A stretch of DNA of 64,000 bases from Parabacteroides gordonii MS-1 = DSM 23371 (GTDB lineage Bacteria > Bacteroidota > Bacteroidia > Bacteroidales > Tannerellaceae), in NCBI RefSeq assembly GCF_000969825.1, contig NZ_KQ033919.1, positions 3,980,749 through 4,044,748 of the forward strand, given 5' to 3'. The stretch's first letter is position 1. Every line of letters begins with the position of its first letter. The notes beneath the pieces are model-generated. The model was not told the origin of the DNA and did no database searches. It worked only from the letters and a program-made list of their open reading frames with translations. Shown here piece by piece: positions 11,829 to 63,608 of the stretch. The position numbers and the translations under genes were made by a program.

Positions 11829-11841
11829 TATAGGAAAAGGA

Positions 11842-12837: not shown

Positions 12838-12852
12838 CTTCTCGTAGATTTA

Positions 12853-13755: not shown

Positions 13756-13783
13756 GATAAGTGTTTAATTTGTATTAGTACCT

Positions 13784-13814: not shown

Positions 13815-13836
13815 ATTAGCATAGCTTCTTTTATTA

Positions 13837-14907: not shown

Positions 14908-14932
14908 ACGTGTTTATCTTTATGATATGATT

Positions 14933-36998: not shown

Positions 36999-37018
36999 TT
37001 TAAATAATCTGCTATAAA

Positions 37019-38871: not shown

Positions 38872-38913
38872 GCTTTGCTTATTCGAATTATTAATTTTTC
38901 AAATGTCAACGAT

Positions 38914-40479
38914 ATGAAATCGGGTTTATTCTATTCATTAACAGGTACTGCGGCTTTGTTATCTGTGGCTTCCTGCTCTCAGAAGAAAGAGAAGGAAGAT
39001 GTAAAAAAGCCTTATAATATAGTCTATATCATGACGGACGATCATACTGCGCAAATGATGAGCTGTTATGATACCCGTTTTATCCGGACTCCTAATCTGG
39101 ATATGATAGCAAACGACGGGGTAAGGTTTACTAACAGTTTTGTTACGAATTCGTTAAGCGGCCCCAGTCGTGCCTGTATGTTTACGGGAAAGTTCAGCCA
39201 TAAAAATGGTTTTACTGATAATACGAACTGTGTTTTTGACGGTTCACAGCAAACAATGCCTAAGTTGTTGCAAAAAGCCGGTTATCAGACGGCGATTATA
39301 GGTAAATGGCATCTGGAGAGTCTGCCGACCGGATTTGATTTCTGGGAGATCGTACCCGGACAAGGCGACTATTACAATCCTGATTTTATCACTTCAGATA
39401 ATGATACGATCCGTAAAAAAGGGTATGTGACCAATATTATTACGGATATGAGTATCGACTGGATGCAGAATCAACGGGACACAAGTAAACCATTCTGTTT
39501 GTTTATCCACCATAAAGCTATTCACCGTAACTGGATGGCTGATACATGTAATCTGGGATTGTATGAAGATAAAACATTCCCGCTTCCTGACAATTATTAT
39601 GATACATATAAAGGACGTCTGGCGGCTGCAGCCCAGGAAATGAGCGTTATCAAGGATATGGATCTTATTTATGATTTGAAAATGCTGCGTCCGGATAAAG
39701 ACAGTCGTTTGAAAAGCTTGTATGAAAAGTATTATGGACGTATGGACGCAGGGCAGAAGGCTGCCTGGGATGAATTTTATGAACCGATTATAAAAGACTT
39801 TTATGCAAAGAATTTAAAGGGTAAAGAACTGGCAGAGTGGAAGTTCCAACGGTATATGCGTGACTATGCCAAGACTGTTAAATCGTTGGATGACAATGTC
39901 GGTCGCGTACTGGATTATCTGAAAGAAAAGAATCTGTTGGAGAATACGTTGGTGGTATATACTTCCGACCAGGGTTTCTATATGGGTGAACATGGTTGGT
40001 TTGACAAACGATTCATGTACGAAGAATCAATGCATACACCTTTGATCATGCGTTTGCCCGCAGGTTTTGATAAACGGGGGGATATTCCGCAAATGGTTCA
40101 GAATATCGATTATGCTCCGACATTTCTGGAGCTGGCCGGTGCGGAAATTCCTGCCGATATGCAGGGGGAATCTCTGTTGCCTTTGTTGAAAGGGGAAAAT
40201 CCGGCAGATTGGCGGACTTCCATGTATTATCATTTTTATGAATATCCGGCCGAACACATGGTAAAACGACATTATGGTGTGCGTACCGATCGTTATAAGC
40301 TGATCCATTTCTATAACGATATTGATAGCTGGGAGTTGTTCGACCTACAGAATGATCCTCATGAAATGAATAATGTGTATGGTCAAAAGGAATATGAACC
40401 GGTGGTAAAAGACATGAAACAGGAATTGCTCCGGTTGCAGGAAAAATATGATGATCCGATACGATTGACGCAGAATTGA
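38914..40479 (+). CDS. Secreted serine-type sulfatase (lipoprotein), paralogue of 1333-2904
   Basis: 521 residues from MKSGLFYSLTG, with lipobox SVASC (Cys21). An ATG-less upstream extension is rejected. The formylglycine motif SGPSRACMFTG places Ser82 as precursor; MTDDH gives the metal site and SDQGFYMGEHGWFDKR is near the C-terminal third. HHKAIHRNWMAD and the ending YYHFYEYPAEHMVKRHYGVR match the first sulfatase almost residue for residue, so both probably attack the same or related sulfate ester. An anSME is needed for maturation but is not in the window. It is the only enzyme gene of this SusCD locus. Confidence 0.93.
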   Translation: MKSGLFYSLTGTAALLSVASCSQKKEKEDVKKPYNIVYIMTDDHTAQMMSCYDTRFIRTPNLDMIANDGVRFTNSFVTNSLSGPSRACMFTGKFSHKNGFTDNTNCVFDGSQQTMPKLLQKAGYQTAIIGKWHLESLPTGFDFWEIVPGQGDYYNPDFITSDNDTIRKKGYVTNIITDMSIDWMQNQRDTSKPFCLFIHHKAIHRNWMADTCNLGLYEDKTFPLPDNYYDTYKGRLAAAAQEMSVIKDMDLIYDLKMLRPDKDSRLKSLYEKYYGRMDAGQKAAWDEFYEPIIKDFYAKNLKGKELAEWKFQRYMRDYAKTVKSLDDNVGRVLDYLKEKNLLENTLVVYTSDQGFYMGEHGWFDKRFMYEESMHTPLIMRLPAGFDKRGDIPQMVQNIDYAPTFLELAGAEIPADMQGESLLPLLKGENPADWRTSMYYHFYEYPAEHMVKRHYGVRTDRYKLIHFYNDIDSWELFDLQNDPHEMNNVYGQKEYEPVVKDMKQELLRLQEKYDDPIRLTQN

Positions 40480-46800: not shown

Positions 46801-46963
46801 ACTGAAGAAAGTAGGTTTTTCTAATTTGCGTTTATATGCAAATGGTAGTAACCTGTTTACTATCGATGGTGTAAAGGATGCCGACCCGGAACAGCGTGAT
46901 GGCAGTATCGGTGGTTATCCATTGAGAAAAATTATCAACTTCGGAGTTCAAGCAACATTTTAA
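43853..46963 (+). CDS. SusC-family TonB-dependent outer-membrane transporter
   Basis: 1,036 residues. Signal region LLLFALFTTTAFAQ, carboxypeptidase-like domain (IRGTVIDASGESLIGVNVSV; GIITDMDGKYQLEVP), TonB-box region LEEVVVVGYGVQKK, plug with an IRIRGTNSLGSNDPLVVIDG motif, and a large barrel. No STN domain. Compared with 33774-36998 it has a longer N-terminal leader before the signal peptide. The SusD partner follows after 12 bp. No sensor/regulator gene adjoins except the broken XRE gene, so control of this pair is unclear. Confidence 0.96.
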   Translation: MKESILDVHSGKCLAKSNLFRMLTLLLFALFTTTAFAQQKNIRGTVIDASGESLIGVNVSVKGTTIGIITDMDGKYQLEVPANATLLFSYIGYQTQEIAVGNQSSINVTLKEDTQKLEEVVVVGYGVQKKVTVTGSVASVSGEELKASPTTNLSNGMVGRMPGVIGFQTADEPGGGGTTIRIRGTNSLGSNDPLVVIDGVPDRDGGMNRLNPTEIESISVLKDAAAAIYGARAANGVVLITTKRGKEGKPVVSFNASAGFSKPTRLPEMTNSYEYATMLNEVLPGSFSDEQIEGFRTHADPWKYPDTDWFGEIVKPASPLYRADIGVSGGTDKIKYYVNFGANGEDGLYKNSANRYDQYSLRANLDIKTSQYVDFQVGTTARLEDTKYPAKGAGDIFGSARRTRPDQPAWWPTGEPGPAIERGDNPAVTSTDLAGFDHYKNQYIQNNFSINVKVPWIEGLTLRGNASYDIHFMNRRKMQKPVYLYSWDGVNESSEGLSASKQWIDAPTLERKHTEQLGWMLNGLIDYNRTFGQHTVGVTFGMEGQKKQYEETLAYRQGFISDSKPELNLGGEEGQMANGYSWKETRLNYFGRVSYNYLERYLFEFVWRVDGSYRFPKDERYGFFPGVSLAWRASEEGWWKDNIRFIDYFKLRGSVSQTGNDALVDSDGNYDHSIQYLTTYAFNNAGTTFGGIENKRLYPSRTPNPNITWEVGTTYNVGLDLKFLQNRLSWETDIFYHKRTNMLISRNASLSEITGITLPRENLGEMKNRGFESLVSWQDKIGQVEYGVALNMTYARNQITFWDEVQNVPEYQFSTGRPVGSRNLLYYVSDGIFRNQAEVDEARAKGLLYSDNTVPGDIRFKDMNGDGKIDGLDRVRPEKNQEPRFVAGLTLTAKWKGWDVMLLFQGATGAQVYIETWSGLVGNYLKSDYEKRWTPENPNSEGPRAWDRENQYWINNDNTYFLRNADYLRLKNAELGYTFRFEGLKKVGFSNLRLYANGSNLFTIDGVKDADPEQRDGSIGGYPLRKIINFGVQATF

Positions 46964-46975
46964 AACGTAATTATT

Positions 46976-48910
46976 ATGAAAACGAAACTAAAATATATTT
47001 GCCTCTCGGCAGTCGCCGGGCTGACACTTTCACTCAGCTCCTGTTCTGACTTCATGGATCTGACACCGGAAGACCAATATGATGAAACAGCCGTTTGGGC
47101 AGATGCAGATTTGACTAAATCGGTTGTCAATGATGTCTACTCGTATGTATGCGACATCGCACAAGAGGTGAATACTTCTGCATGGTCGGACGATGCTTTC
47201 TTTACACATGTGTATGGATGCCGTGATATCAATGAAGCAACAGTTTCCCCAAGTAACCTGGGGGCTTATGATCGTGATGACTGTCCGTTCAAGTGGAGTA
47301 AACAGTACAAAGGTATCTACCGTGCCAATCTGGTATTGGAAAATATCGATAATGTACCTGAGAAAACCGGTGTAGACCTGAATGTCCTGAAAGGGGAGAT
47401 CTATTTCCTTCGGGCATATATCTATACGGAATTGCTTCGTGGCTTCGGCGGTGTGCCTATCGTAGATAAGGTGTATTCTATTGAAGAGGCTTCCGAGTTG
47501 AGCCTGCCGCGTGCTGATGTAGCAGATGTTATGGATTTTATCCTGAAAGATATCGAGCAGGCTGTTAGCTTATTGCCCGAAGAACAGTCGGGTGCGAACT
47601 TAGGCCGTGCAACGAAAGGGGCTGCCAAAGCTTTAAAGGCCCGTGTATTGTTGCATGTAGCCAGTCCGTTGTTCGCAGATCGTTCTGTTAATACATTGGC
47701 ATGTAATCAATACACCGGCGACCGTCAGGCTTTGTATCAACAAGCTTTGGATGCCGCTAAAGAGGTGATTAATAACGGCCCTTATTCGTTGGTCGATTGC
47801 AATGCAGCTACTATTAAGGATATAGCAAACAACTTCCACAATATCATTATTACGAATAATGAGGAAACAATCTGGGCAAAACAGTATGTAAACAAAGATC
47901 AGAATGCCGATAACTGGGTTCGCAACCGTGTCGCTTTGCTGCATGGGCCGAACGGATATCATAACTGGGCAGGAACTGCTCCGACACATGATTTGGTTAT
48001 GGCATTCGAGGTGGAAGACGGAAAACTTCCTGATGAACTGCTGAAACCCGGTGAAGAAACGACTGTGAATCCGTATGCAAACCGTGAACCGCGCTTCTAT
48101 GCTACAATAGGTTATGACGGTGCAGAGTGGGGACGTCCCAGAGCTGCCGATGGAGCCGTGTTCGATGCCACCCCGCTGGGTAATCTGCAGTTCGGTTATT
48201 ACGAATTGAGTAGCGGTGGTTCAAAAGTCGATGCCATACAATCTGTGGATGATGAGAATAATCCGATCAAAACGCAGTCCTTTAACGGTATGGTGGGGGT
48301 AGATTCCCGTATGTCGAATATCGAAAACTGGAATGGTACGTATACAGGTTATCTGGAGAAGAAATTAATAGATGGCACAGTCTCTGCGACCGAACATAAT
48401 TTCCAGACCAATCCGATGCCGTATATCCGTTTGGCCGAAATGTATCTGATTGCGGCTGAAGCAAGTCTTGAGTTGAACAAGTTGGATGAAGCAGTCACTT
48501 ATCTGGATGCTCTTCGTAGTCGTATCGGTCGCCCGGACACAAAAGCCACTTTGGCGGTTCGTGGACAGGCATTCAACCAAAACGACTTACGTGAATTCCT
48601 GCGGCGGGAGCGTCGTGTAGAGTTGGCTTACGAGGAATCACGTTATTATGATGTACGCCGCTGGATGATCGCTCCGGAAGCGGGTAGCAAGAAGTTGACG
48701 GGTATTACTATTGTAGGTCGTCTGAAACCCGGTAAGACGGCGACTTTACCTTATGTACATGATGAAGAGGTATATGATTATACCTGGACTGTCCTCAATC
48801 TGAACTATATAGAGAAGCGTAAATGGGATAACAAAATGTATTTTGCTCCAATCAAACTGGAAGAGACATTGCGTAATCCGGCCTTGGAGCAGAACCCCGG
48901 GTTTAAGTAG
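46976..48910 (+). CDS. SusD/RagB-family lipoprotein
   Basis: 644 residues, lipobox LSSC (Cys23). SusD landmarks include DLTPEDQYDETAVWADADLT, LKGEIYFLRAYIYTELLRGF, GVPIVDKVYS, RLAEMYLIAAEASLELNKLD, and LRRERRVELAYEESRYYDVR. It is a typical partner of the SusC just upstream. The operon appears to contain no enzymes; degrading enzymes may be the dehydrogenase and beta-galactosidase genes downstream or lie elsewhere. Confidence 0.96.
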   Translation: MKTKLKYICLSAVAGLTLSLSSCSDFMDLTPEDQYDETAVWADADLTKSVVNDVYSYVCDIAQEVNTSAWSDDAFFTHVYGCRDINEATVSPSNLGAYDRDDCPFKWSKQYKGIYRANLVLENIDNVPEKTGVDLNVLKGEIYFLRAYIYTELLRGFGGVPIVDKVYSIEEASELSLPRADVADVMDFILKDIEQAVSLLPEEQSGANLGRATKGAAKALKARVLLHVASPLFADRSVNTLACNQYTGDRQALYQQALDAAKEVINNGPYSLVDCNAATIKDIANNFHNIIITNNEETIWAKQYVNKDQNADNWVRNRVALLHGPNGYHNWAGTAPTHDLVMAFEVEDGKLPDELLKPGEETTVNPYANREPRFYATIGYDGAEWGRPRAADGAVFDATPLGNLQFGYYELSSGGSKVDAIQSVDDENNPIKTQSFNGMVGVDSRMSNIENWNGTYTGYLEKKLIDGTVSATEHNFQTNPMPYIRLAEMYLIAAEASLELNKLDEAVTYLDALRSRIGRPDTKATLAVRGQAFNQNDLREFLRRERRVELAYEESRYYDVRRWMIAPEAGSKKLTGITIVGRLKPGKTATLPYVHDEEVYDYTWTVLNLNYIEKRKWDNKMYFAPIKLEETLRNPALEQNPGFK

Positions 48911-49287: not shown

Positions 49288-50454
49288 ATGAAAAACAGAA
49301 AGCTAAGAATGGGCATGGTAGGCGGTGGCAGCGATGCTTTTATTGGAGCTATCCATCGTCGTGCGGCCTTTATGGACAATCAGATTGAATTAGTTTGTGG
49401 ATGTTTCAGCGTAGACCCTGAAATATCAAAAAGTTCCGGACTCTCTTATTTCTTGCCGGAAGACCGTATTTACAGTACTTACCAGGAAATGTTCGAGCAT
49501 GAAATGACTTTGCCGGAAGGAGAACGGATGGATTTTGTAACTATCGTGACTCCCAACCGCTGGCATTTCGAACCGGCTATGATGGCTTTGGAAAGAGGTT
49601 TCCATGTCGTAGTGGATAAGCCGATGACCTTCTCTTTGGAGGAAGCGAAGCAATTACAGAAGAAGGTGGAGGAAACCGGACTCGTTCTGGCTCTTACCCA
49701 TGTTTATTCAGCCTATCCTGCTGTAAAAGAGGCGAAAGCCCGTATCGCCAGAGGTGATCTGGGTAAACTGCGTCGTGTATATGTGGAATACCTGCAAGGA
49801 TGGCTGTCCGACCGCATCGAATTACAAGGAGGTAATAATGCCGGATGGCGTACTGACCCGAAACGTTCGGGGAAAGCCGGTTGTATCGGTGATATCGGTA
49901 CACATGCCTGGCACCTGAGTGAATATATAACAGGTCTTAAGGTGCAGGAAGTCTGTGCAGACCTGAATGCCTTTGTTCCCGGACGTCCGATCGACGATGA
50001 CGGTGCCGCCTTTATGCGCTATGAAAATGGCGTGGTCGGTACACTTACAGCCTCACAGATCGCTGCCGGAGAAGAAAATAATATCCGTATCCGTATTTAT
50101 GGAGATAAAGGCGGGTTGGAATGGCAACAGCAGGAACCTAATACCCTGTTTGCCAAATGGACTGATAAACCGACCGAGGTTATCCGGATGGGAAACAACG
50201 GATTTATAGGCGATACGGCCAAGATGAATACCCGTACACCGGGCGGTCATCCCGAAGGTTTCATCGAAGCTTTTGCCAACATATACAGAAACTTCGCCCA
50301 TACCGTAATGAGCATCAAGAAAGGAGAACAGCCATGTGAAGAATGCCTGGACTTCCCGACCGTATACGATGGCGTAAGAGGTATGCAATTCATTGAAACA
50401 ATGGTGGAAGCCGGCTACAATGAAAATGTGAAATGGCAGAAGTGGGTCGATTGA
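49288..50454 (+). CDS. Gfo/Idh/MocA-family NAD(P)-dependent sugar dehydrogenase, cytoplasmic
   Basis: 388 residues, no signal peptide. The Rossmann start GMVGGGSDAFIGAIH and the VDKPMTFSLEEA motif (conserved Lys) mark the Gfo/Idh/MocA family. DIGTHAWHLSEY supplies the His often used in catalysis. It likely oxidises or epimerises a sugar released by the beta-galactosidase encoded 31 bp downstream. The substrate is unknown. Distinct from the Tat-exported family member at 55363-56748. Confidence 0.9.
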   Translation: MKNRKLRMGMVGGGSDAFIGAIHRRAAFMDNQIELVCGCFSVDPEISKSSGLSYFLPEDRIYSTYQEMFEHEMTLPEGERMDFVTIVTPNRWHFEPAMMALERGFHVVVDKPMTFSLEEAKQLQKKVEETGLVLALTHVYSAYPAVKEAKARIARGDLGKLRRVYVEYLQGWLSDRIELQGGNNAGWRTDPKRSGKAGCIGDIGTHAWHLSEYITGLKVQEVCADLNAFVPGRPIDDDGAAFMRYENGVVGTLTASQIAAGEENNIRIRIYGDKGGLEWQQQEPNTLFAKWTDKPTEVIRMGNNGFIGDTAKMNTRTPGGHPEGFIEAFANIYRNFAHTVMSIKKGEQPCEECLDFPTVYDGVRGMQFIETMVEAGYNENVKWQKWVD

Positions 50455-53598: not shown

Positions 53599-53650
53599 AA
53601 AGCATAATCGGTTTACGATTAACGTTAAATAGGCCGGTTATGCTTTCTTT
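53599..53650 (+). terminator. Terminator after the beta-galactosidase gene
   Basis: AAAGCATAATCGG pairs with CCGGTTATGCTTT (one G-U pair) over a 22-nt loop, then CTTTATATT. It separates the GH2 transcript from the cytochrome operon. Confidence 0.7.
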
Positions 53651-53733: not shown

Positions 53734-55320
53734 ATGGCTACTAACAAAAATTCTAATCGATATTCATCAGACCAAAAAAAGAAGAGCTTCTTTAAAGGAA
53801 AGACTTTTATGCTTCTTTTGGGAGTGATTTTTGGTGCCGGGGTTATGATCCTGGCTTACAATACTTCTGTCTATTTTTCTTCCGATGAGTCATGTATGAT
53901 GTGTCATGTACACCCGCATGTGGAAAATAGCTGGAAACTGTCCAAACACGTAAATAACGGTAGTGGTGTGAAAGTACATTGTGTAGACTGTCACCTTCCG
54001 CCTAAAAACGACACCTGGAACCATTATACGGCAAAAGCAAAGCTGGGTCTGAAAGATGTGTGGTCTTTTATGACAAAGGACAGCGCCGATTTTGACTGGA
54101 ATGCAAAGTCAGAGTTGGAACATGCCGTAAAGTATATCCCTAACGAATCATGTAAAGAGTGTCACCAGAATTTGTTTCCGGAAGGAATTACAAACGATGG
54201 TATCACAGCACACCTTTATTATGATGAGAATGAAAAGAAACTGGACTTGCAGTGTATCAGCTGCCACCTGGATGCAGGACACTATAACCCGAACTACAAT
54301 CACTCGAAGATGACGGGTGTTCCGGGTATGGCTTCCGGTTCCGGAGCGATCGATACAAGCTTGTATTTTAAAGAACCGACGACGGTAACAGCTTTTGCTG
54401 ATTATAAGGAACAGATCCCCGGCACTCCGGTGTCGTTTAAGATGGTGGCTGTTCCGGGCGGAACATTCAAGATGGGTAGCACCTCGAAAGAACCGTTCCA
54501 TAAACCGGATGAAGAACCCGTACGTGACGTAACTGTCAGCCCGTTCTTTATGGCTGAACTGGAAGTGACCTGGGATCAGTACTGGGCATTCTACGGCAGT
54601 ACGATGAGTGAAGGACGTACACCTCCCGAAACTGTATATGCGAACAACAGTAATCCGGATGTAGATGCGATCTCCGGCCCGACTCCTCCGTTCGGATTCC
54701 CCGACCAGGGATGGGGTGGCGGCGACCGTCCGGCTATCACGATGACACATTATGCGGCTGAAACATTCTGCCAGTGGCTGTCGAAAAAGACCGGTAAGAA
54801 ATACCGTCTGCCAACTGAAGCCGAATGGGAATATGCAGCCCGTGGTGGTACGGAAACTCCTTACTTCTTCTCCGGCAGTCCGAAAGATTTCTCGGATCAG
54901 GGCTTCTGGCGTAAGTTCTTCGATGCAAAGACCGACAGTATCAGTTCGTTCGTCATTTACAGCAAGAACAGTAAGAATAAGACACAGGAACCGGATCTGG
55001 TGAAAGCCAATCCGTTCGGATTAAAGAATATGTTGGGTAATGTCATGGAATATTGTGCAGATAAATACGATCCCGAAGCTTACAGCAAGGGTGGTAATGC
55101 TGTTACAAATCCATTGGTGACTGAAGGAACGGAATGGGTAGTACGCGGAGGTAACTATACTTCGGATGCGGCAGACCTTCGTTCGGCAGCCCGCGACTAT
55201 ACCAAACATGATGCGTGGTTGAAGACAGACCCGCAGCAACCTAAAAGTATCTGGTGGTACTCAGACATACGCGGCATCGGTTTCCGTGTAGTATGCGAGC
55301 CGGATGCATCAGTAAAGTAG
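53734..55320 (+). CDS. NapC/NirT-type tetraheme cytochrome c fused to a SUMF1-fold domain
   Basis: 528 residues. A membrane anchor (MLLLGVIFGAGVMILAY, about 26-42) precedes four c-type haem sites: CMMCH (54-58), CVDCH (83-87), CKECH (140-144) and CISCH (174-178), as in NapC/NrfH quinol dehydrogenases. Residues about 235-525 are an SUMF1/formylglycine-generating-enzyme fold (VAVPGGTFKMGS; PVRDVTVSPFFMAELEVTWD; YRLPTEAEWEYAARGG; MLGNVMEYCADKYDP; VRGGNYTSDAADLRSAARDY; GIGFRVVCE). The two active-site cysteines of true FGE, expected in the RGG...R region, are absent, so sulfatase activation is unlikely. Probably takes electrons from menaquinol, or feeds them to it. First gene of the redox operon. 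Confidence 0.9.
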   Translation: MATNKNSNRYSSDQKKKSFFKGKTFMLLLGVIFGAGVMILAYNTSVYFSSDESCMMCHVHPHVENSWKLSKHVNNGSGVKVHCVDCHLPPKNDTWNHYTAKAKLGLKDVWSFMTKDSADFDWNAKSELEHAVKYIPNESCKECHQNLFPEGITNDGITAHLYYDENEKKLDLQCISCHLDAGHYNPNYNHSKMTGVPGMASGSGAIDTSLYFKEPTTVTAFADYKEQIPGTPVSFKMVAVPGGTFKMGSTSKEPFHKPDEEPVRDVTVSPFFMAELEVTWDQYWAFYGSTMSEGRTPPETVYANNSNPDVDAISGPTPPFGFPDQGWGGGDRPAITMTHYAAETFCQWLSKKTGKKYRLPTEAEWEYAARGGTETPYFFSGSPKDFSDQGFWRKFFDAKTDSISSFVIYSKNSKNKTQEPDLVKANPFGLKNMLGNVMEYCADKYDPEAYSKGGNAVTNPLVTEGTEWVVRGGNYTSDAADLRSAARDYTKHDAWLKTDPQQPKSIWWYSDIRGIGFRVVCEPDASVK

Positions 55321-55362
55321 ACTAGTGTAAAAATTATATCAATTCTTTAAATTTGCTATATC

Positions 55363-56748
55363 ATGAAAAAGGAAAACAGTATCAGTAGAAGATCATTTTT
55401 AAAAAGTTCGGCTATGGCTGGTGCACTGGGTGCAATCGGTACAGGTAGTGCGGCTAGTGTTTTAACTTCTTGTGACGGTGGAAGCAAGGCGAATGCTTTG
55501 AAACCGCTGAAAGAACCCGGAACGTACTACGTTCCCGAATTGCCGGATCTGGCAACCGACGGACAGGAACTGAAAGCCGGTGTTATCGGTTGTGGCGGAC
55601 GTGGTTCCGGTGCAGCTTTCAACTTCCTGAATGCCGCCAACGGTGTTACAATCGTTGCACTGGGTGATACTTTCCAGGAAAGAGTGGATGAACTGGCTGA
55701 TAAGCTGAAAAAAGATAAAAACATAGATATTCCCGCCGATAAGCGTTTTGTCGGTTTGGATGCTTATAAACAAGTAATAGATAGTGGGGTAGATGTTGTG
55801 ATCATTGCAACTCCTCCCGTGTTCCGTCCGGTACATTTCCAATATGCTACGGAAAAAGGAAAACATTCATTCCTTGAAAAACCGATCTGTGTAGACCCGG
55901 TAGGTTATCGTACGATCATGGCTACTGCTAAACAGGCGGATGCCAAGAACCTGCGTGTAATCACAGGTACACAACGTCATCACCAGCGTCCTTATGTGGA
56001 ATCTTATAAGAAGGTAATGGAAGGTATGATCGGTGAAATTACCGGTGGTACGGTTTACTGGAACCAGAATATGTTGTGGTTCCGCGAACGTCAGAAAGAC
56101 TGGAATGATTGTGAATATATGATCAAAGACTGGGTAAACTGGAAATGGTTGTCAGGTGATCATATCGTTGAACAGCATGTACACAACATCGATGTATTCA
56201 CCTGGTTCAGCGGTTTGAAACCGGTTAAGGCTGTCGGTTTCGGTTCCCGCCATCGTCGTGTTACAGGTGACCAGTATGATAATTTCAGTATCGACTTCAC
56301 GATGGAGAACGGTATCCACATGCACAGTATGTGCCGCCAGATCGACGGTTGCGTGAATAATGTAAGCGAATTTATTCAGGGGACAAAAGGTTCATGGGAT
56401 AGCTCTACTATGGAGATCAAAGACCTTGCCGGTAATGTGATATGGAAATACGACTACGAAGCAGAGAAAGCAAACTTCAAGCAGACTGACCCGTATACAT
56501 TGGAACATGTGAACTGGATTAACAGTATTCGTGGTAACAAACCGCTTCAGCAGGCATCCGAAACAGCCGTTTCCAATATGGCTGCTATTATGGGACGCGA
56601 ATCGGCATATACCGGTGCTGAAACAACCTGGGATGCAATGACTGCTTCTCCGTTGGATTATACTCCGAAAGACCTGAATCTGGGTAAGATGGATATGAGT
56701 ACGTTTACCGTTCCGGTTCCTGGCAAACCTCTTGAACAAAAGAAATAA
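55363..56748 (+). CDS. Tat-exported Gfo/Idh/MocA-family oxidoreductase (probable lipoprotein)
   Basis: 461 residues. SRRSFLKSS is a Tat signal and VLTSC (Cys37) a lipobox, so the protein is exported folded and may be lipid-anchored. The nucleotide-binding motif GVIGCGGRGSG and the LEKPICVDP segment are family hallmarks. TGTQRHHQRPYVESYKK and GDHIVEQHVHNID add likely substrate residues. GH109 glycosidases have this layout and were considered, but the residue pattern reads more like dehydrogenases. Tat export fits a pre-bound nicotinamide cofactor. It sits 42 bp after the tetraheme gene and 3 bp before the TIM-barrel gene, so the cytochrome may recycle its cofactor (inference). Confidence 0.87.
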   Translation: MKKENSISRRSFLKSSAMAGALGAIGTGSAASVLTSCDGGSKANALKPLKEPGTYYVPELPDLATDGQELKAGVIGCGGRGSGAAFNFLNAANGVTIVALGDTFQERVDELADKLKKDKNIDIPADKRFVGLDAYKQVIDSGVDVVIIATPPVFRPVHFQYATEKGKHSFLEKPICVDPVGYRTIMATAKQADAKNLRVITGTQRHHQRPYVESYKKVMEGMIGEITGGTVYWNQNMLWFRERQKDWNDCEYMIKDWVNWKWLSGDHIVEQHVHNIDVFTWFSGLKPVKAVGFGSRHRRVTGDQYDNFSIDFTMENGIHMHSMCRQIDGCVNNVSEFIQGTKGSWDSSTMEIKDLAGNVIWKYDYEAEKANFKQTDPYTLEHVNWINSIRGNKPLQQASETAVSNMAAIMGRESAYTGAETTWDAMTASPLDYTPKDLNLGKMDMSTFTVPVPGKPLEQKK

Positions 56749-56751
56749 GAT

Positions 56752-57693
56752 ATGACTCTGAATAGAAGAAACTTTTTAAGAACAACATTGTCCGGTGCCG
56801 CAGTAGCTGCTGTAAGCACCGGTGCATTGGCCTCCTGTGCCGGCAAGGCTTCTTCTCCGGAAACATGTCCGGAAACTAAATCCTGCTGTAACAGCAAGGC
56901 GAAACTGAACCTTTCTTTTCAGGAAGGGACTCCTCCGGGTGAAAACCTCAATGAGAAGTTCGACTATATGGAAAAGATGGGTATTGTCGGTTTCGAACCG
57001 GGCGGACGCGGACTGAAAGACCGTGTGGGTGAGATCAAACAGGCTTTGAACGGACGCAATATCAAAGTCAGTGCCATCTGTGCAGGCTTCGAAGGTTTTA
57101 TCCTCTCTACCGATCCGGCTATCCGTAAGCAATGTATGGATACGATGAAAGAGATCATCACGGCAGCCGGTGAGCTTGGTTCTACGGGTGTTATCATTGT
57201 TCCTGCTTTCAACGGACAAGTACCGGCGCTTCCTCATAACCAGGAAACGCGCGATTTCCTTTGCGAACAGTTCAACGAAATGGGTAACCATGCGGTTCAG
57301 AACGGAACGACCGTTATTTTTGAACCATTGAACCGTAAAGAATGTTTCTATATGCGTCAGGTAGCCGATGCAGCTTCCGTATGCCGGGATATAAACAATC
57401 CGGGTGTTCGCTGCATGGGTGACTTTTGGCATATGACCTGGGAAGAAACTTCCGACATGGGAGCGTTCCTCTCGGCGGGCGACTATCTCCAACACGTACA
57501 CGTGGCAAGCCGCAAACGACGCAGCATGCCGGGTGAAGACGGTGATGCGGATAACTATGTAGACGGCTTCAAAGGCCTGAAGATGATAGGTTATGATAAA
57601 TACGTAAGTTTCGAATGCGGATGCCAGGGTGACCGTAACACGGTGCTTCCGGCCGCAGTTGAATTATTACGCAAACAATGGGAAGAAGCATAA
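56752..57693 (+). CDS. Tat-exported sugar phosphate isomerase/epimerase-like TIM-barrel protein
   Basis: 313 residues. LNRRNFLRTT is a Tat signal and LASCAG (Cys29) a lipobox. The body is an AP-endonuclease-2/xylose-isomerase-like TIM barrel: MEKMGIVGFEPGGRG, VSAICAGFEGFIL, FEPLNRKECFYMRQV (metal-binding Glu), MGDFWHMTWEE (Asp/His), HVHVASRKRRSMPG and VSFECGCQGD (final Glu). The substrate cannot be a phosphorylated cytoplasmic sugar. In gut Bacteroides such proteins occur with Gfo/Idh/MocA enzymes in the 3-keto-sugar route for glycoside cleavage, where they act as isomerase/lyase-type components. Tight spacing (3 bp either side) indicates one operon. Confidence 0.85.
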   Translation: MTLNRRNFLRTTLSGAAVAAVSTGALASCAGKASSPETCPETKSCCNSKAKLNLSFQEGTPPGENLNEKFDYMEKMGIVGFEPGGRGLKDRVGEIKQALNGRNIKVSAICAGFEGFILSTDPAIRKQCMDTMKEIITAAGELGSTGVIIVPAFNGQVPALPHNQETRDFLCEQFNEMGNHAVQNGTTVIFEPLNRKECFYMRQVADAASVCRDINNPGVRCMGDFWHMTWEETSDMGAFLSAGDYLQHVHVASRKRRSMPGEDGDADNYVDGFKGLKMIGYDKYVSFECGCQGDRNTVLPAAVELLRKQWEEA

Positions 57694-57696: not shown

Positions 57697-58407
57697 ATGC
57701 CTTTAGTATATCCTAATATGCAAATGAGTGAGGTGGTGGAAGAACATCCCTCACTCATTCCTGTGATCAACCGGTTTGGTATCCGTCTGGGATTGGGTGA
57801 CAAGTCGGTGAAGACTATCTGTGATGAATATCAGCTGGATACCGATTTCCTGCTGACGGTGATCAATACGTTCCTCAACGAAGAGTACTTCCCGGAGCGG
57901 AAGTTGCAGACATTCCATACATCACAGATCATCGATTACCTGACCAAGACCAACCAGTATTATTTACGTTATCAATTGCCGAACATAGAGCGGCATCTTA
58001 CCTCTTTTATCTCTATGAGTACGCCGGGAAACAATACATTGAACCTGATCGGTAAATTTTTCTCCTCTTTCAAGGAAGAGTTGACCAGCCGTATTCAGAA
58101 AGACGATGAGTTGTGGTTTCCCTATTGCCTGTCTTTAAGTGAAAAGATCAACGGTTGCCAAGCTTCGGGCGAAACCGGAGTGCTTCAGCTCGGTGGTGAG
58201 CAGCGGCTGGAAGATCCTATCGAAGCGCTGCTGTCAGACCTGAAAGGGATCATGGTTAAGCATCTGTCGGGCGATTACAATGAGAATTTATGCTATGCTG
58301 TGATCTTCGGTATCAGCAGTCTTGAGAAAGATATCAAGCAGCACAACCGCATCCGTTACCGTATTCTTACTCCGATGGTTTCCGCGATGGAGAAATTATG
58401 TAAATAA
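57697..58407 (+). CDS. DUF542/hemerythrin-like protein with degenerate di-iron ligands
   Basis: 236 residues, cytoplasmic. The N-terminal 60 residues match the ScdA/YtfE-type DUF542 region (MSEVVEEHPSLIPVINRFGI; LGLGDKSVKTICDEY). The remainder is an HHE-like four-helix bundle, but the usual His-His pair in helix 1 reads TNQYYLRYQLPNIERHL. Only scattered ligands remain in the last helix (DIKQHNRIRYRILTP). Acidic positions such as DDELWFP persist. A classic oxygen- or NO-sensing di-iron site is therefore doubtful. It is 3 bp from its neighbours and immediately followed by a LuxR-type regulator, so it may act as its sensor or partner. Confidence 0.82.
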   Translation: MPLVYPNMQMSEVVEEHPSLIPVINRFGIRLGLGDKSVKTICDEYQLDTDFLLTVINTFLNEEYFPERKLQTFHTSQIIDYLTKTNQYYLRYQLPNIERHLTSFISMSTPGNNTLNLIGKFFSSFKEELTSRIQKDDELWFPYCLSLSEKINGCQASGETGVLQLGGEQRLEDPIEALLSDLKGIMVKHLSGDYNENLCYAVIFGISSLEKDIKQHNRIRYRILTPMVSAMEKLCK

Positions 58408-58416
58408 TCCTTGTTG

Positions 58417-59001
58417 ATGCACAGAACCAGGCAAATAGCGATCATTCTATCCGATACTTTGCAAAGCATTGGCCTTCAGAGCTTGCTTACCGACTATTTC
58501 CCGCCGGTAGAAGTATGCTGGTTCCCTACCTTCGAAGCGTTTAATGCTTCGGGTTGCAACGACACGTTCGACTACTATTTTACATCACCGGAAACCCTGG
58601 TATTGAATGCCGATTTTTTCCTTCCCCGCCGTAGCAAAACAACCGTACTGATCGATGGGGGAGAAGGGGCAGGTGGAGTTTCCACTACCAACCATATCAC
58701 GATAAAAGCTCCGCAGGAGATCATCATCGAGCAGTTGCAGCAGTTAATGACCAACGATAACTCCGCTAATCTTTCCGGTGAAACCAACAAAGACCTTTCC
58801 ACCCGTGAGACGGATGTCCTCCAACTGATAGTAAAAGGCATCACCAACAAGGAAATAGCCGACAAGCTGAGTATCAGCCTGAACACAGTCCTTACCCACC
58901 GTAAAAACATTACCGCCAAGCTCGGCATCAAAACCGTTTCCGGCCTTACCTTCTATGCCATCATGAACGGGATTATTTCGGGGGATGATATAGAATTATA
59001 G
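58417..59001 (+). CDS. LuxR-family transcriptional regulator with atypical receiver
   Basis: 194 residues from MHRTRQIAIIL; TTG codons 3-6 bases upstream are less likely. Residues 1-110 resemble a receiver but lack the phospho-acceptor Asp (DYYFTSPETLVL stands where it would be). Residues about 130-190 are a complete LuxR HTH: LSTRETDVLQLIVKGITNKE, IADKLSISLNTVLTHRKNIT. It probably regulates its own operon or the TonB receptors downstream, and may respond to the hemerythrin-like partner rather than phosphorylation. Its stop codon overlaps the first unit of a palindrome array. Confidence 0.92.
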   Translation: MHRTRQIAIILSDTLQSIGLQSLLTDYFPPVEVCWFPTFEAFNASGCNDTFDYYFTSPETLVLNADFFLPRRSKTTVLIDGGEGAGGVSTTNHITIKAPQEIIIEQLQQLMTNDNSANLSGETNKDLSTRETDVLQLIVKGITNKEIADKLSISLNTVLTHRKNITAKLGIKTVSGLTFYAIMNGIISGDDIEL

Positions 59002-59117
59002 TGATCTCTGTTTAGGACTATAGTGATACTTCGGTTAATACTATAGTGCTGATATATGTAGGTCTATAGTGTTATAATAGGTCACACTACTGTGTAAAAT
59101 CACTACATCTAGTGATT
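58997..59117. repeat. Array of TATAGTG-centred quasi-palindromes at 22-23 bp pitch
   Basis: TATAGTG or close variants recur at 58997, 59019, 59042, 59065 and 59088 (TACTGTG), with a final inverted repeat AATCACTA/TAGTGATT (59098-59117). Spacing is 22, 23, 23 and 23 bp. Units are centred on CTATAG-like dyads and the first overlaps the luxR stop codon. The last one abuts the probable -33 element of the TonB receptor promoter. Function unknown; multi-site operator is the simplest reading. Confidence 0.75.
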
Positions 59118-59146
59118 GCGGACCTTGTTTCTTTCCCGTTTCTTTG
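59115..59146 (+). promoter_or_regulatory. Probable promoter of the tandem TonB receptors
   Basis: ATTG (59115-59118), a 20-bp spacer and TTTCTTTG (59139-59146, one mismatch to TAnnTTTG). The -33 element overlaps the last array unit, so a repressor or activator bound there would affect polymerase. Confidence 0.45.
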
Positions 59147-59177
59147 CAATCGTAAAATACTAATAGTTCGAAATACA

Positions 59178-61529
59178 ATGAAACAACGCTACCTGTATGT
59201 CCTGGTCGCAGGCTCTTTTCTTTGTTTGCAAACGATGAAAGCCGATGAGGTGAATGTAAACAAAAATGATACTATTAAGACATATAATATCGATGAGGTT
59301 ATCATCACTTCGTCGACGAAGGAGACGAACGACCTGCGTTTGTTGCCAGGATCTGTATCTATCCTTTCCCCGCAAGCTGTTTCAGGACGTCAGATCGATG
59401 CGTTGAAAGATATCAGTGCGTATGTTCCCAATCTTTATATGCCGGATTACGGTTCCAAAATGACTTCGGCTATCTATATCCGCGGTATCGGTGCACGAAG
59501 CAGCGGGCAGTCGATCGGACTTTATGTGGATAATGTGCCGTATCTGGATAAGAGTGCATTCGATTTTGAATTGAACGATATCCAGCGTATCGAAGTGCTG
59601 CGTGGCCCCCAGGGTACGTTGTACGGACGTAATGCGATGGGAGGTATCGTGAATATTTATACCTTGTCGCCATTCAACTATCAGGGGACGAAGCTGACTC
59701 TTTCGGGTGGTAATTATGGCGCTTTTAAGGCTAAGGCATCCCATTACAGGAAACTGAGCGAAAAGGTCGGTATTTCACTCAGCGGTTATTATGACCGTAA
59801 TGACGGGTTCTTTGTCAATGAATATGATAATACCCGTGCGGATAAGGAACAGTCGGCCGGCGGACGCTTCAAACTGGACTGGCTGATCAATCCGAACCTG
59901 AAAGCGCAATATACTTTCAACTACGATCATGTAGATCAGGGCGCCTTTCCCTATGGATTGTATAATAAGGAATCAGGTGTTGTTGAGCCGATCCGCATAA
60001 ACGATCCCAGTTCTTATCTGCGTAATATGTTGAATAATAGTCTTTATCTGGAATGGAAAACAGATAAGATCCTGTTGTCTTCCACTACTGCCTACCAGTA
60101 TTTGAAAGATGATATGAAGATGGATCAGGATTATACGGAGAAATCTATCTTTACATTGAATCAGAAACAGAAGCAATATGCCTGGAGCGAAGAAGTTGCG
60201 ATTAAATCAAACGATAAGAAGAATTATCAATGGAGCTTCGGGGCGTATGGTTTTTATAATAGTTTGAAAACGGATGGGCCGGTGATGTTTAAGGAAGATG
60301 GTATAAAAGAAATCCTTCAAGCTCAATTTGATAAAATACCTATGCCTAAGATTACCGTTAAAGGTGAGAATAATCAAATTTATTTCCCTGGATACTTTGA
60401 AACACCGACTTATGGGTTAGCATTATTTCATCAATCAACTTATAATGATTTATTTATTCCAGGTCTATCTGTTACGGCGGGTATCCGCTTAGATTACGAA
60501 CATGCGAAATTGAATTATGACTCATCGGTAAAGGGGATGACGATGAATATATTTATGCCGAGTATGGCTCCGGGCATGCCGGCAATTAATCAGGATTTCC
60601 CGGTGACAGCCCATTTACAGGGAGAGGAGTCTCAGGATTTCTTGCAGGTTTTGCCTAAAGTGTCTTTGCGTTATCAATGTTCACCGGGGACATTTACTTA
60701 TGTTTCTGTAGCAAAGGGATATAAAACAGGGGGGTATAATGTACAGATGTTTGGAGATCTGGTACAGGCACAGGCTCAGTATGATCTTAAAGAAGAAATA
60801 AAAAATATGATGCCGCCGGCAATGAGTGGTATGTTTGAAAATCCGGAGTTACCTCCTGTATCTGATGTTGCGTCGTTTAAGCCTGAGCATAGTTGGAACT
60901 ATGAAATGGGGGTTCGTAGTGAACTTATCAAGAATCGTCTGAATATGGAGCTGACGCTCTTTTATATGGATATTCAGGATATCCAGTTGACAACTTTCGC
61001 TCAGAATGGTAGTGGCCGTATGATTACCAATGGAGGTAAAGCGGATAGTTATGGTGTTGAAGTTGGTTTGCGAGGTCTTCTTGCTGAAGGTTTAACAGCT
61101 GATCTTAATTATGGTTTTACCCGTGCTACTTTCCGCGATTATATGACGCAGGTAAAAGAAGATGGAGAGTTAGTGGATAAGGATTATAAAAATAACTTTA
61201 TTCCGTATACACCCCGTCATACGGTAAGTTTGGGATTTCAATATACTAAACTGCTTCATAATTGCTGGTTCGATCAATTTACAATTTCAGCTCAATATAC
61301 CGGAGCCGGAAAGATCTTCTGGACAGAAGAAAATAATCTTAGCCAGGATTTCTACGGCGTGCTGAACGGTAAAGCCGGTGTCCGTAAAGGAGCTGTCAAT
61401 CTGAATGTATGGAGCCGCAATATAACGAATACGGATTATCAGGCATTCTATTTTGAATCGTTCGATAACTCATTTATACAAAAAGGTAAACCGTTCCAGA
61501 TCGGGGCAGAAGTTACGGTAGCGTTTTAA
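59178..61529 (+). CDS. TonB-dependent receptor with methionine-rich loops
   Basis: 783 residues from MKQRYLYVLVAG; the open frame extends 22 codons upstream into the promoter. Signal peptide near LCLQTMKA, TonB-box-like IDEVIITSS, plug (YVPNLYMPDYGSKMTSAIYI; IEVLRGPQGTLYGRNAMGGI), then a 22-strand-type barrel ending in IGAEVTVAF. It is a classic siderophore/vitamin-type receptor, not SusC. Barrel loops carry Met/Pro-rich inserts (NIFMPSMAPGMPAIN; MMPPAMSGMFENPELPP) absent from the downstream paralogue, which is 92 residues shorter. The central part of the gene (about 60280-61300) is visibly more AT-rich than both ends. Cargo unknown; metal or metal chelate is plausible. Confidence 0.92.
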   Translation: MKQRYLYVLVAGSFLCLQTMKADEVNVNKNDTIKTYNIDEVIITSSTKETNDLRLLPGSVSILSPQAVSGRQIDALKDISAYVPNLYMPDYGSKMTSAIYIRGIGARSSGQSIGLYVDNVPYLDKSAFDFELNDIQRIEVLRGPQGTLYGRNAMGGIVNIYTLSPFNYQGTKLTLSGGNYGAFKAKASHYRKLSEKVGISLSGYYDRNDGFFVNEYDNTRADKEQSAGGRFKLDWLINPNLKAQYTFNYDHVDQGAFPYGLYNKESGVVEPIRINDPSSYLRNMLNNSLYLEWKTDKILLSSTTAYQYLKDDMKMDQDYTEKSIFTLNQKQKQYAWSEEVAIKSNDKKNYQWSFGAYGFYNSLKTDGPVMFKEDGIKEILQAQFDKIPMPKITVKGENNQIYFPGYFETPTYGLALFHQSTYNDLFIPGLSVTAGIRLDYEHAKLNYDSSVKGMTMNIFMPSMAPGMPAINQDFPVTAHLQGEESQDFLQVLPKVSLRYQCSPGTFTYVSVAKGYKTGGYNVQMFGDLVQAQAQYDLKEEIKNMMPPAMSGMFENPELPPVSDVASFKPEHSWNYEMGVRSELIKNRLNMELTLFYMDIQDIQLTTFAQNGSGRMITNGGKADSYGVEVGLRGLLAEGLTADLNYGFTRATFRDYMTQVKEDGELVDKDYKNNFIPYTPRHTVSLGFQYTKLLHNCWFDQFTISAQYTGAGKIFWTEENNLSQDFYGVLNGKAGVRKGAVNLNVWSRNITNTDYQAFYFESFDNSFIQKGKPFQIGAEVTVAF

Positions 61530-61532: not shown

Positions 61533-63608
61533 ATGAAGATATTATTCCTATCTTGTTGTTTATCCTTATCTGTTTTAGCTGTCAGAGCAGAAGATCAGGA
61601 TACAGTGAAAGTCCGTCAGGTCGATCTGCACGAAGTTGTTGTTCAATCATTCAAGCAAAACAGGGATTTGCGGTTGGAGCCGTTGTCGGCATCATCCGTA
61701 ACAGGGACGGCCATACAAAATAAGAACATTACCGATATCAAGGAATTCAGTTCCTTTATCCCTAACCTTTTCATGCCCGACTATGGCTCGAAGCTGACTT
61801 CTCCCGTTTATATCCGTGGGATCGGCTCGAAGATCAATGCCCCTTCGGTGGGGCTTTACGTAGACGGCATCCCTTACTTTGAAAAGTCGGCTTTCGATTT
61901 CAACTTCACCGAGATAGACCGGATGGAAGTGCTGCGCGGCCCGCAAGGGACACTTTACGGACGCAACACGATGGGAGGTATCATTAACGTATATACCAAA
62001 TCGCCGTTGAAGTATCAGGGGATGAACGCTTTCATCTCTAACGGTACCTATGGTAACCGCGATTATGCCCTTTCCCGTTACGCCAAGATCGGCGATACCT
62101 TCGGGTATGCCCTCTCCGCCAATTATAACCGGAGCGACGGATACTTCACCAACCTGTTTACCGATAAGAAAGCAGACGATCAGAAAAGCGGTTCAGGCCG
62201 TATCCGCCTGGAATGGAAGCCGACGGATCGGTTGTCGTTGGGGCTGATGAGTTCGTATGATTATTCCAAACAGGGCGGCTACCCGTATGCCGTTTGCGAC
62301 TCGCTGACACATAAGCCGGGCGATGTCAATTACAACGATTATAGTTTCTACAAACGAGCCATGTCCACCACCGGCCTGACGGTTGAATATAAAGGGGAGG
62401 GTTACAGCCTGAGCAGTAAAACCGCATTCCAATATCTTTCGGATCATCAGGGGATCGACCAGGACTTTTCTGCGGCAAGCGTCTATTTTGCCAAGCAGGA
62501 TCAGAAACAGAAGATGGTATCGGAAGAGTTCAATATCAAATCTACTACTGCCAACCGTTATAAATGGTTGTTCGGTGCTTTCGGTTTCTGGCAGGGGATC
62601 GATAATACGGTGACGCTCGATTACCTCTCCGCCAAATACAGTACTCGGAAATTATACGATACTCCTACTTACGGCTTTGCCCTTTATCACCAGTCTACTC
62701 TGGATAGCTTGCTGACGGACGGCCTATCCCTTACTTTCGGACTGCGATACGATTATGAGCGGGCTTCAACCGATTATCTGGCCTATAAAGATGCCGGCGG
62801 CAGTAGTAATCAGACGGATGCTTTTTACAGTAAACTGAACTTTAGCCAGCTGACCCCGAAGATCGCCCTGCAATATATGTTCCCCTCTACCGGCCTGCTC
62901 TATGCAACGGTGACGAAAGGCTACAAGACCGGTGGTTTCAATACTTCCTTCGAGCGTGAAGAAGACCGTTCGTTCCGCCCCGAAAGCAGCTGGAATTATG
63001 AGTTGGGTGGGAAGCACCCCTTTCTGGACAACCGCCTGCGTGCCGAGATCGCCCTTTTCTGGATCGACTGGAAGAACCAGCAGATCAGCCAGACACTCCC
63101 TTCCGGTCGCGGATCGATGTTGACAAATGCCGGGCGCAGCGTAAGCAAAGGCGTGGAAGTCACTTTGCAGGGAAACCCGGTGAATGGTCTGATGGTGCAG
63201 GTGAATTATGGCTTTACGCATGCCACATTTAAAGAATACGTCGATGAAAAGAAAAACATCGATTACTCCGGCAATTACCTGCCGATGGTTCCTTCGCATA
63301 CGTTCGCTGTCGGAGCCGACTACACGCTGTCGAATCCCTGTACCCACATCGACCGTTTTCTGGTCAGTCTGAATTATACCGGAACCGGGCGTATTCATTG
63401 GAAGGAAGACAATAAAGTTTCCCAGCCTTACTATGGACAATTGAGCGGAAAAGTTTCTGCAACCAAAGGATTTGCTACCTTTGCAATCTGGGCTAAAAAC
63501 ATCACGAATACCCACTATAACGCTTTCTATTTCGAGTCGGGAGGAAAAGGGCTGGCGCAATTGGGTCGGCCGTTTACGATCGGGGGAAGTGTGGCGATAG
63601 CACTTTAA
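61533..63608 (+). CDS. TonB-dependent receptor, tandem paralogue
   Basis: 691 residues with a short signal peptide (LSVLAVRAE). TonB-box-like LHEVVVQSF, plug (FIPNLFMPDYGSKLTSPVYI; MEVLRGPQGTLYGRNTMGGI) and a barrel ending in IGGSVAIAL. It shares MPDYGSK, the plug and the ITNTxYxAFYFES ending with the upstream receptor, so the pair arose by tandem duplication. It lacks the Met-rich loop inserts. It begins 3 bp after the first receptor and ends 1 bp before an MFS gene: a single transport operon. Confidence 0.92.
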   Translation: MKILFLSCCLSLSVLAVRAEDQDTVKVRQVDLHEVVVQSFKQNRDLRLEPLSASSVTGTAIQNKNITDIKEFSSFIPNLFMPDYGSKLTSPVYIRGIGSKINAPSVGLYVDGIPYFEKSAFDFNFTEIDRMEVLRGPQGTLYGRNTMGGIINVYTKSPLKYQGMNAFISNGTYGNRDYALSRYAKIGDTFGYALSANYNRSDGYFTNLFTDKKADDQKSGSGRIRLEWKPTDRLSLGLMSSYDYSKQGGYPYAVCDSLTHKPGDVNYNDYSFYKRAMSTTGLTVEYKGEGYSLSSKTAFQYLSDHQGIDQDFSAASVYFAKQDQKQKMVSEEFNIKSTTANRYKWLFGAFGFWQGIDNTVTLDYLSAKYSTRKLYDTPTYGFALYHQSTLDSLLTDGLSLTFGLRYDYERASTDYLAYKDAGGSSNQTDAFYSKLNFSQLTPKIALQYMFPSTGLLYATVTKGYKTGGFNTSFEREEDRSFRPESSWNYELGGKHPFLDNRLRAEIALFWIDWKNQQISQTLPSGRGSMLTNAGRSVSKGVEVTLQGNPVNGLMVQVNYGFTHATFKEYVDEKKNIDYSGNYLPMVPSHTFAVGADYTLSNPCTHIDRFLVSLNYTGTGRIHWKEDNKVSQPYYGQLSGKVSATKGFATFAIWAKNITNTHYNAFYFESGGKGLAQLGRPFTIGGSVAIAL

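Follow-up and report, generated by a model that had tools for sequence, protein, structure and literature searches.

A gene cluster of Parabacteroides gordonii MS-1 = DSM 23371 may encode a quinone-coupled periplasmic (3-keto) sugar dehydrogenase, in which a tetraheme cytochrome fused to a SUMF1/formylglycine-generating enzyme (FGE)-fold domain (Cyt-SUMF1) would work together with a Tat-exported Gfo/Idh/MocA oxidoreductase (hereafter Gfo). We stand evenly divided on this full assignment; the co-function of the two proteins, as judged from gene order and distribution across genomes, we consider well supported. The cluster lies in a stretch of 64,000 nucleotides (NZ_KQ033919.1; this whole stretch is hereafter the window) of a 6.79 Mb genome, and among named relatives Parabacteroides goldsteinii comes closest at this locus (97% for the cytochrome protein). 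A check of the open reading frames (ORFs) bore out the layout that an original prediction had drawn from this DNA, i.e. three genes (ORF 1, Cyt-SUMF1; ORF 2, Gfo; ORF 3, a Tat-exported TIM-barrel protein; Table 1) separated by gaps of 42 bp (ORF 1-ORF 2) and 3 bp (ORF 2-ORF 3).

The first part of ORF 1 belongs to the NapC/NirT cytochromes (PF03264 score of 82.4 bits vs a cut-off of 24.1) and carries an N-terminal helix (amino acids (aa) 19-48 in the structure model of the fusion). Throughout an alignment of 43 fusion proteins (down to 45% identity) not only the four heme motifs, but also H60, H72, H160 and H183 are invariant. The profile of the cytochrome domain matches D. vulgaris NrfH (2j7a) at 6e-11, H60 aligns with the methionine of the NrfH CxxCHxM motif, and the likewise invariant K101 and D108 align with two NrfH residues, a Lys and an Asp, that we take to be K82 and D89 (in its numbering), with a role in the quinol site. 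The score against the NrfH equivalog TIGR03153 stays below its cut-off (71.7 vs 134.2 bits). The domain is of the NrfH/NapC type, with a putative quinone-reactive site; quinol oxidation to feed a periplasmic reductase would be the activity expected of this class. The retention of these residues agrees with the quinone link that had been proposed for the cytochrome. The host genome has two PF01578 cytochrome c assembly matches and one further NapC/NirT cytochrome.

The original description of ORF 1 as a tetraheme cytochrome holds for the four hemes and the NNT domain, but it had missed the fused SUMF1/FGE-fold domain. This domain resembles PvdO and FGE: by Foldseek, the closest solved fold to the fusion model is PvdO (5hha, 6.0e-18), which NCBIfam names dihydropyoverdine dehydrogenase, and PorK/GldK are also among the matches. 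The model of the whole fusion is moderate (mean predicted local distance difference test (pLDDT) 76, predicted template modelling score 0.64), its SUMF1 part lying mostly above a pLDDT of 84, except for about aa 281-330 and 491-510. Formylglycine-generating enzymes have a pair of active-site cysteines close to the C-terminal end of this domain; no such pair occurs in WVVRGGNYTSDAADLRSAARD, and between aa 471 and 483 Cys is not among the four commonest residues at any position of the 43 sequences. For want of the cysteine pair, an FGE function of the fused domain was rejected.

ORF 2 is a member of the Gfo/Idh/MocA superfamily (Pfam GFO_IDH_MocA 5e-11, TAT_signal 4.6e-6), with the Rossmann and C-terminal domains, the EKP motif and the catalytic Lys and His. 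In 55 of 55 Gfo sequences the GxG loop, D102, the EKP lysine K173, H274 and D277 are kept, and position 270 is occupied by Glu (43 sequences; E270 in the window), Asp (10) or Asn (2). Since a lipobox-like Cys comes after the RRxF motif in every relative (44 of the 55 fit a scripted lipobox pattern), the protein is probably a membrane-anchored lipoprotein. Its structure model (mean pLDDT 89) finds inositol dehydrogenases and glucose-fructose oxidoreductase (GFOR) among its best fold matches. Membership in the BT_2158 family was rejected (NF058561 24.3 bits vs a cut-off of 750).

The TIM-barrel protein of ORF 3 (Pfam AP_endonuc_2 2e-29) has a twin-arginine motif, read from the sequence, that is kept in 12 of 12 relatives, five of which fit the lipobox pattern. 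A close homologue has been solved as 3kws (“putative sugar isomerase”; 539.8 bits across the mature part), and of the characterised relatives the nearest is the 3-keto-D-glucoside 4-epimerase 6wn6 (profile 2e-32). E191, D224, H250 and E288, invariant in the 12 relatives, form a Glu-Asp-His-Glu metal tetrad of the kind typical of metal-dependent keto-sugar epimerases, and on this tetrad together with the similarity ORF 3 belongs to the DTE/YcjR-type TIM-barrel epimerases. TIM-barrel Mn eliminases of 3-keto-glycosides also exist (PMC10628242). The protein may be a metal-dependent epimerase or beta-eliminase acting on the keto product.

The evidence for co-function comes from two sets of loci, i.e. 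the closest ones (best 80 of 179) and those of 295 genomes drawn evenly from the Bacteroidales. In the first set Gfo lies directly 3' of the cytochrome gene in 80/80 loci (median gap 42 bp), and in the even sample directly 3' of the fusion in 37 of 42. Full-length fusions were taken at >=437 bits (a line drawn on the match list), which gave 43 genes, one of them the window's own and 42 in other loci; the count left out partial matches (two further ones in G233, and in G154 one that scored 149 bits and covers the cytochrome only) as well as the many SUMF1-only matches that make up most of the 285 matching genomes. On this basis the fusion is present in 38 of the 295 genomes (19 families) and Gfo (E<=1e-60) in 39, with 38 genomes having both. 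The corresponding Fisher values (3.5e-47 for fusion vs Gfo, 1.3e-18 for the TIM orthologue) overstate independence because the genomes are related; we cite the 80/80 gene order and the 43/43 heme motifs as more than chance. The TIM orthologue is next in 75 of the 80 closest loci (in four of the other five the sequence ends too early, and L054 is a true absence from a genome that carries a second, complete locus) and follows Gfo in 9 of the 42 even-sample loci; at E<=1e-50 it is found in 18 genomes, all of them with the fusion. Co-occurrence across the Bacteroidales, the check that the original prediction had set itself, was thus borne out for the cytochrome and Gfo, but its three-gene unit has to be narrowed: the conserved core consists of Cyt-SUMF1 and Gfo, to which the TIM barrel is an accessory.

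A link to 3-keto-glycosides, the setting that had been proposed at the outset, is backed by the neighbouring genes and by the distribution of BT_2158-family enzymes. We scanned 102 of 128 same-strand operon genes (excluded were the 24 of L121-L124 and two very long proteins; the fusion and its Gfo are not counted) and, as control, 102 of 128 genes drawn at random from the same loci. TIM barrels account for 15 of the 102 neighbours (7 being orthologues of the window gene) vs 3 in the control, further Gfo/Idh/MocA proteins for 15 vs 4, and ThuA (6) and 3-keto-disaccharide hydrolases (4) for <=1 each in the control. Outside the Bacteroidales, the 71 neighbours (of 88 ORFs; 16 of the 20 loci are covered, the other four having been missed by the ORF caller, short or doubtful ORFs were excluded, and this set has no control) include 12 TIM barrels, 5 ApbE proteins and 5 3-keto-disaccharide hydrolases. 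Genes for 3-keto-disaccharide hydrolases lie directly 3' of Gfo in L221 and L223 and close by in L220. Furthermore, a BT_2158-family glycoside 3-dehydrogenase is present in 35 of 38 fusion genomes vs 38 of 257 others (two of the three fusion genomes without it are incomplete, at 61% and 76%). This is an association and not a need, because 38 genomes have such enzymes without the fusion. The window genome itself encodes three BT_2158-family enzymes, at other loci, and its matches to the 3-keto-disaccharide hydrolase family number 16.

Beyond the Bacteroidales, Gfo is found with other partners. In a phylum sample of 395 genomes the fusion (scored at E<=1e-50) was found in 3 and Gfo in 64; over all sampled genomes, the fusion was seen in Bacteroidales plus one genome of another class. 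The SUMF1 half alone matched in 8 other genomes of the phylum sample, all of which have Gfo: the two genes adjoin in L179, L181, L185 and L186, and no Gfo was found in the stretches around the SUMF1 gene in L180, L182, L183 and L184. In 20 further non-Bacteroidales Gfo loci (hand-picked from the 64 genomes, mostly as best matches and not at random) a SUMF1-like frame directly precedes Gfo on the same strand in 11, is nearby in 2 and is absent in 7, and none of the 18 recovered SUMF1 ORFs contains a CxxCH motif. The SUMF1-Gfo pair is wider spread than the fusion, which makes the tetraheme part look like an addition to it. SUMF1 would then be the partner of Gfo and the hemes an exchangeable electron outlet, a view that, like any on which of the two states is older, we infer without a tree. 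ApbE is encoded within three genes of Gfo in some non-Bacteroidales loci (the five neighbours counted above) and also in L181, which raises the idea of a covalent-flavin route (flavin-attachment targets were not systematically looked for); no ApbE is among the 15 window proteins scanned (ORF 46976, a SusD by position and similarity, ORF 29508 and short ORFs fall outside this set). L181 (2561-8889) brings together genes for SUMF1, Gfo, ApbE, a TIM barrel and a GMC oxidoreductase, a mix of two sugar-dehydrogenase types. The SUMF1-only relatives of L180 and L182 (about 8900-17000) stand near a presumably YceI-like gene, near a gene for a protein with two CxxCH motifs and, in L182, near an ApbE gene, perhaps in another use of this SUMF1 type. 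Two Gfo paralogues of the same genome (48% and 44%; L187, 7983-9347, and L188, 8007-9371) have no cytochrome partner beside them, and a gene that weakly matches SusD lies near the former.

In the mechanism that we infer (nature of the substrate, oxidation at C3, direction of electron flow, role of SUMF1 and NADH-to-heme step alike), Tat would export Gfo in folded form, its nicotinamide already in place, and Gfo would then be lipid-anchored facing the periplasm, where it would oxidise a secondary hydroxyl (most likely at C3) of a glycoside or sugar by means of K173, E270 and H274. The SUMF1 domain would dock Gfo and place it beside the tetraheme domain, and electrons would move by way of SUMF1 to the hemes and from there to menaquinone at the NrfH-type site; this direction is assumed from redox potentials, the oxidation of sugars by menaquinone being downhill and the reverse uphill. 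In Parabacteroides, the TIM barrel would act on the keto product, and a further Gfo/Idh/MocA protein encoded upstream (GfoU, at 49288) might reduce imported keto-sugar, a role of the kind proposed for a Gfo oxidoreductase on 3-keto-glucose in A. tumefaciens (PMC10628242).

Several observations weigh against such a dehydrogenase. The weakest step of the scheme leads from a hydride on NAD to hemes that take single electrons; direct transfer from NADH to heme is chemically poor, and the 15 window proteins scanned include neither a flavoprotein domain nor a 3-keto-disaccharide hydrolase. The usual task of NapC/NrfH proteins is to oxidise quinol and to supply a periplasmic reductase with the electrons. 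The pairing itself has gaps: G160 has Gfo (42%) without the fusion (the sole exception among the 39 Gfo genomes), and 5 of the 42 even-sample fusion genes have no Gfo directly after them (it lies within about 4 kb in L131 and L132, about 9 kb further on in L139 and on other contigs in the genomes of L133 and L134, L133 having in addition a Gfo on the opposite strand next to the fusion, truncated where the contig stops). The TIM orthologue is missing (E<=1e-50) from 20 of the 38 fusion genomes, and copies of Gfo exceed those of the fusion in several (3:1 in the window's own genome, 5:1 in G038). In the phylum sample, 61 of the 64 Gfo genomes lack the fused cytochrome (E<=1e-50), so the chemistry of Gfo does not need it. 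A tentative and rather doubtful way around the weak step is that SUMF1 acts as an electron-transfer adaptor, relaying electrons from the Gfo-bound nicotinamide to the hemes through a bound cofactor, the heme-free SUMF1-Gfo pairs (sometimes near ApbE) then using another acceptor.

The best-surviving alternative, which we still regard as unlikely, is that Gfo is redox-neutral (in the manner of GH109, GFOR or E. coli YcjS/YcjR): its bound NAD would serve to oxidise and then re-reduce one sugar, or two, and between these steps the TIM barrel would epimerise or cleave, the cytochrome only rescuing enzyme stuck with NADH or setting its starting redox state. A bound NAD(P) often goes with redox-neutral chemistry in Gfo/Idh/MocA enzymes, the fold neighbours of Gfo include GFOR, aldose-aldose oxidoreductase and an NAD-dependent glycoside hydrolase, the TIM barrel is nearest to an epimerase, and the 61 cytochrome-free genomes fit the same picture. 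However, the retention of the cytochrome in 38 of 39 Bacteroidales Gfo genomes is strict for mere rescue. The GH109-type variant, which the original prediction had named as its own alternative, is less likely: the GH109 structure 2ixa gives a weak profile match limited to the Rossmann part (6.5e-8, with 30 distinct sequences ranking higher) and Gfo has no GH109-named Pfam match, so that GH109 membership appears improbable and is retained solely inside this alternative.

A respiratory reductase, in which menaquinol would pass electrons through the tetraheme domain to Gfo and a keto-sugar or other carbonyl would serve as an anaerobic sink, strikes us as improbable. It would suit both the NapC/NirT relatives, which are quinol dehydrogenases feeding periplasmic reductases, and an order rich in anaerobes; yet keto-sugar/sugar couples lie below menaquinone, making their reduction by menaquinol uphill, and the partners include 3-keto-glycoside-cleaving enzymes, which need 3-keto compounds to be made and not removed. 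Least probable of all is a redox activity of the SUMF1 domain itself (PvdO/EgtB-like), served by the hemes, with Gfo and the TIM barrel engaged in small-molecule modification and not in glycoside catabolism. For this speak the PvdO fold match, the good conservation of the domain and the presence of a relative beside Gfo even without hemes; against it speak the missing FGE cysteine pair, the structural roles that SUMF1-fold proteins can have (PorK/GldK) and neighbours enriched in sugar enzymes.

As for the surroundings of the core, a terminator-like hairpin intervenes after the GH2 gene upstream of ORF 1, so the three genes may have a transcript of their own; the GH2 gene was ruled out as a core part, given this hairpin and its absence beside the module in many loci. 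No TAnnTTTG motif (presumably the Bacteroidetes -7 promoter element) was found just 5' of the cytochrome gene; one occurs at 49241, ~40 bp 5' of GfoU. A sigma-70 scan (8 sites vs a mean of 18.9 in shuffles) was not used. GfoU may be a further component: 36 of the 80 closest and 3 of the 42 even-sample loci have a similar gene, on the same strand, within the 5 kb upstream. In five genomes the TIM orthologue stands away from the fusion, beside a GfoU relative in L214 (52%; 5986-10683, with a BT_2158-family gene close by) and L217 (77%; 4797-6906), and with no GfoU neighbour in L215, L216 and L218. Downstream of ORF 3, a RIC/ScdA-like gene (57697-58407; no Pfam match, NCBIfam RIC 47.7 bits vs a cut-off of 204.7) and a LuxR-type regulator (58411-59001) come after the module in many loci of Parabacteroides and Tannerellaceae; both were ruled out as core parts, being missing from four Dysgonomonas-labelled loci and others. 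Tandem TonB-dependent receptors come next (59112-61529 and 61533-63608; best NCBIfam match a siderophore receptor, below cut-off), and in several related loci both queries match one single gene. Upstream lie two SusC/SusD-like pairs (33774-38803 and 43853-48910, the last SusD being outside the scan), the former followed by a sulfatase (38875-40479).

Table 1. Features of the Cyt-SUMF1/Gfo cluster, in positions of the window.
Feature	Coordinates	Strand	Evidence
ORF 1, Cyt-SUMF1: tetraheme NapC/NrfH-type cytochrome fused to SUMF1/FGE-fold domain, 528 aa	53734..55320	+	
NapC/NirT tetraheme domain, aa 24-187	53803..54294	+	PF03264 (Cytochrom_NNT) 4.2e-23
Heme motif 1, CMMCH, aa 54-58	53893..53907	+	kept 43/43
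Heme motif 2, CVDCH, aa 83-87	53980..53994	+	kept 43/43
Heme motif 3, CKECH, aa 140-144	54151..54165	+	kept 43/43
Heme motif 4, CISCH, aa 174-178	54253..54267	+	kept 43/43
K101 to D108, aligned with Lys and Asp of D. vulgaris NrfH	54034..54057	+	both invariant 43/43
SUMF1/FGE-fold domain, aa 236-489, without FGE active-site cysteine pair	54439..55200	+	PF03781 6.9e-40
ORF 2, Gfo: Tat-exported Gfo/Idh/MocA oxidoreductase, predicted lipoprotein, 461 aa	55363..56748	+	
Tat signal (RRSF) and lipobox-like LTSC at Cys37	55363..55473	+	RRxF then Cys in 55/55 relatives
ORF 3: Tat-exported TIM-barrel keto-sugar epimerase/isomerase-like protein, 313 aa	56752..57693	+	3kws 1.5e-161, 6wn6 3.4e-25
GfoU: possible accessory, levoglucosan-dehydrogenase-like, no export signal seen	49288..50454	+	NCBIfam 107 bits, cut-off 650
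Terminator-like hairpin between GH2 gene and cytochrome gene	53600..53645	+	minimum free energy -21.4 kcal/mol, z -4.9, equalled by 0/200 shuffles

The cleavage of glycosides through 3-keto compounds is a recently recognised breakdown route in gut Bacteroidota, and a dedicated cytochrome-SUMF1 partner, co-inherited with hardly an exception, offers a testable answer to how exported nicotinamide enzymes dispose of their electrons. If the dehydrogenase reading is true, sugar breakdown outside the cytoplasm would couple to anaerobic respiration, and should SUMF1 also act as the adaptor, this would be the first case of a periplasmic NAD-enzyme driving a respiratory complex. Moreover, a role would be gained by 3kws and by a SUMF1 subfamily that so far carries the bare name “SUMF1/EgtB/PvdO family nonheme iron enzyme”. 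No description of a module of Gfo plus a SUMF1-cytochrome was found in open-licence PMC papers, which is no proof of its being unpublished.

Among known systems, NrfH/NapC (2j7a) shares with the fusion the CxxCH motifs, the N-terminal helix and the aligned quinol-site Lys and Asp; the window protein differs by its fused SUMF1 domain, by His60 in place of the CxxCHxM methionine and by a partner that is a sugar oxidoreductase and not NrfA/NapA. With PvdO and FGE it has the SUMF1 fold in common, but lacks the FGE cysteines and is fused to a cytochrome. E. coli YcjS/YcjR likewise combines a Gfo/Idh/MocA protein with a related TIM barrel (6wn6, which we take to be YcjR), the pathway presumably comprising a 3-ketoglucoside dehydrogenase and the 3-keto-D-glucoside 4-epimerase; YcjS/YcjR is cytosolic and balanced through NADH, whereas the window proteins are exported and encoded beside a cytochrome. 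LacABC of Caulobacter and Pedobacter resembles the proposed system in oxidising glycosides at C3 by a dedicated multi-component dehydrogenase, which, we assume, includes a cytochrome c and a GMC flavoprotein as the dehydrogenase itself. Its DUF1080 hydrolase is put in the periplasm by PMC9007349, and GlycDH is called a flavoenzyme in PMC10628242. LacABC and GlycDH thus rely on a flavin enzyme, in contrast to the nicotinamide Gfo/Idh/MocA protein with its NapC/NrfH-SUMF1 fusion in the window. The 3-keto-glycoside pathway BT2156-BT2160 of B. thetaiotaomicron (a BT_2158-family glycoside 3-dehydrogenase, a DUF1080 hydrolase and a TIM-barrel isomerase), like the window, pairs a Gfo/Idh/MocA protein with a sugar isomerase-type protein on glycosides; the window Gfo, however, stands outside the BT_2158 family. 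A table of PMC10434189 annotates BT2156-58 and shows no cytochrome among them, PMC9007349 gives BT2157 as a 3-ketotrehalose hydrolase, and PMC11501099 reports no growth defect of BT2157 and BT2158 deletions on raffinose-family sugars, so that the role of the BT2156-2160 pathway would depend on the substrate. Taken together, the module differs from these systems in that it stands outside the BT_2158 family, has no GMC flavoprotein among the 15 window proteins scanned and unites parts of which no joint description was found in open-licence PMC papers; on the best reading, it would be akin to the known respiratory glycoside 3-dehydrogenases.

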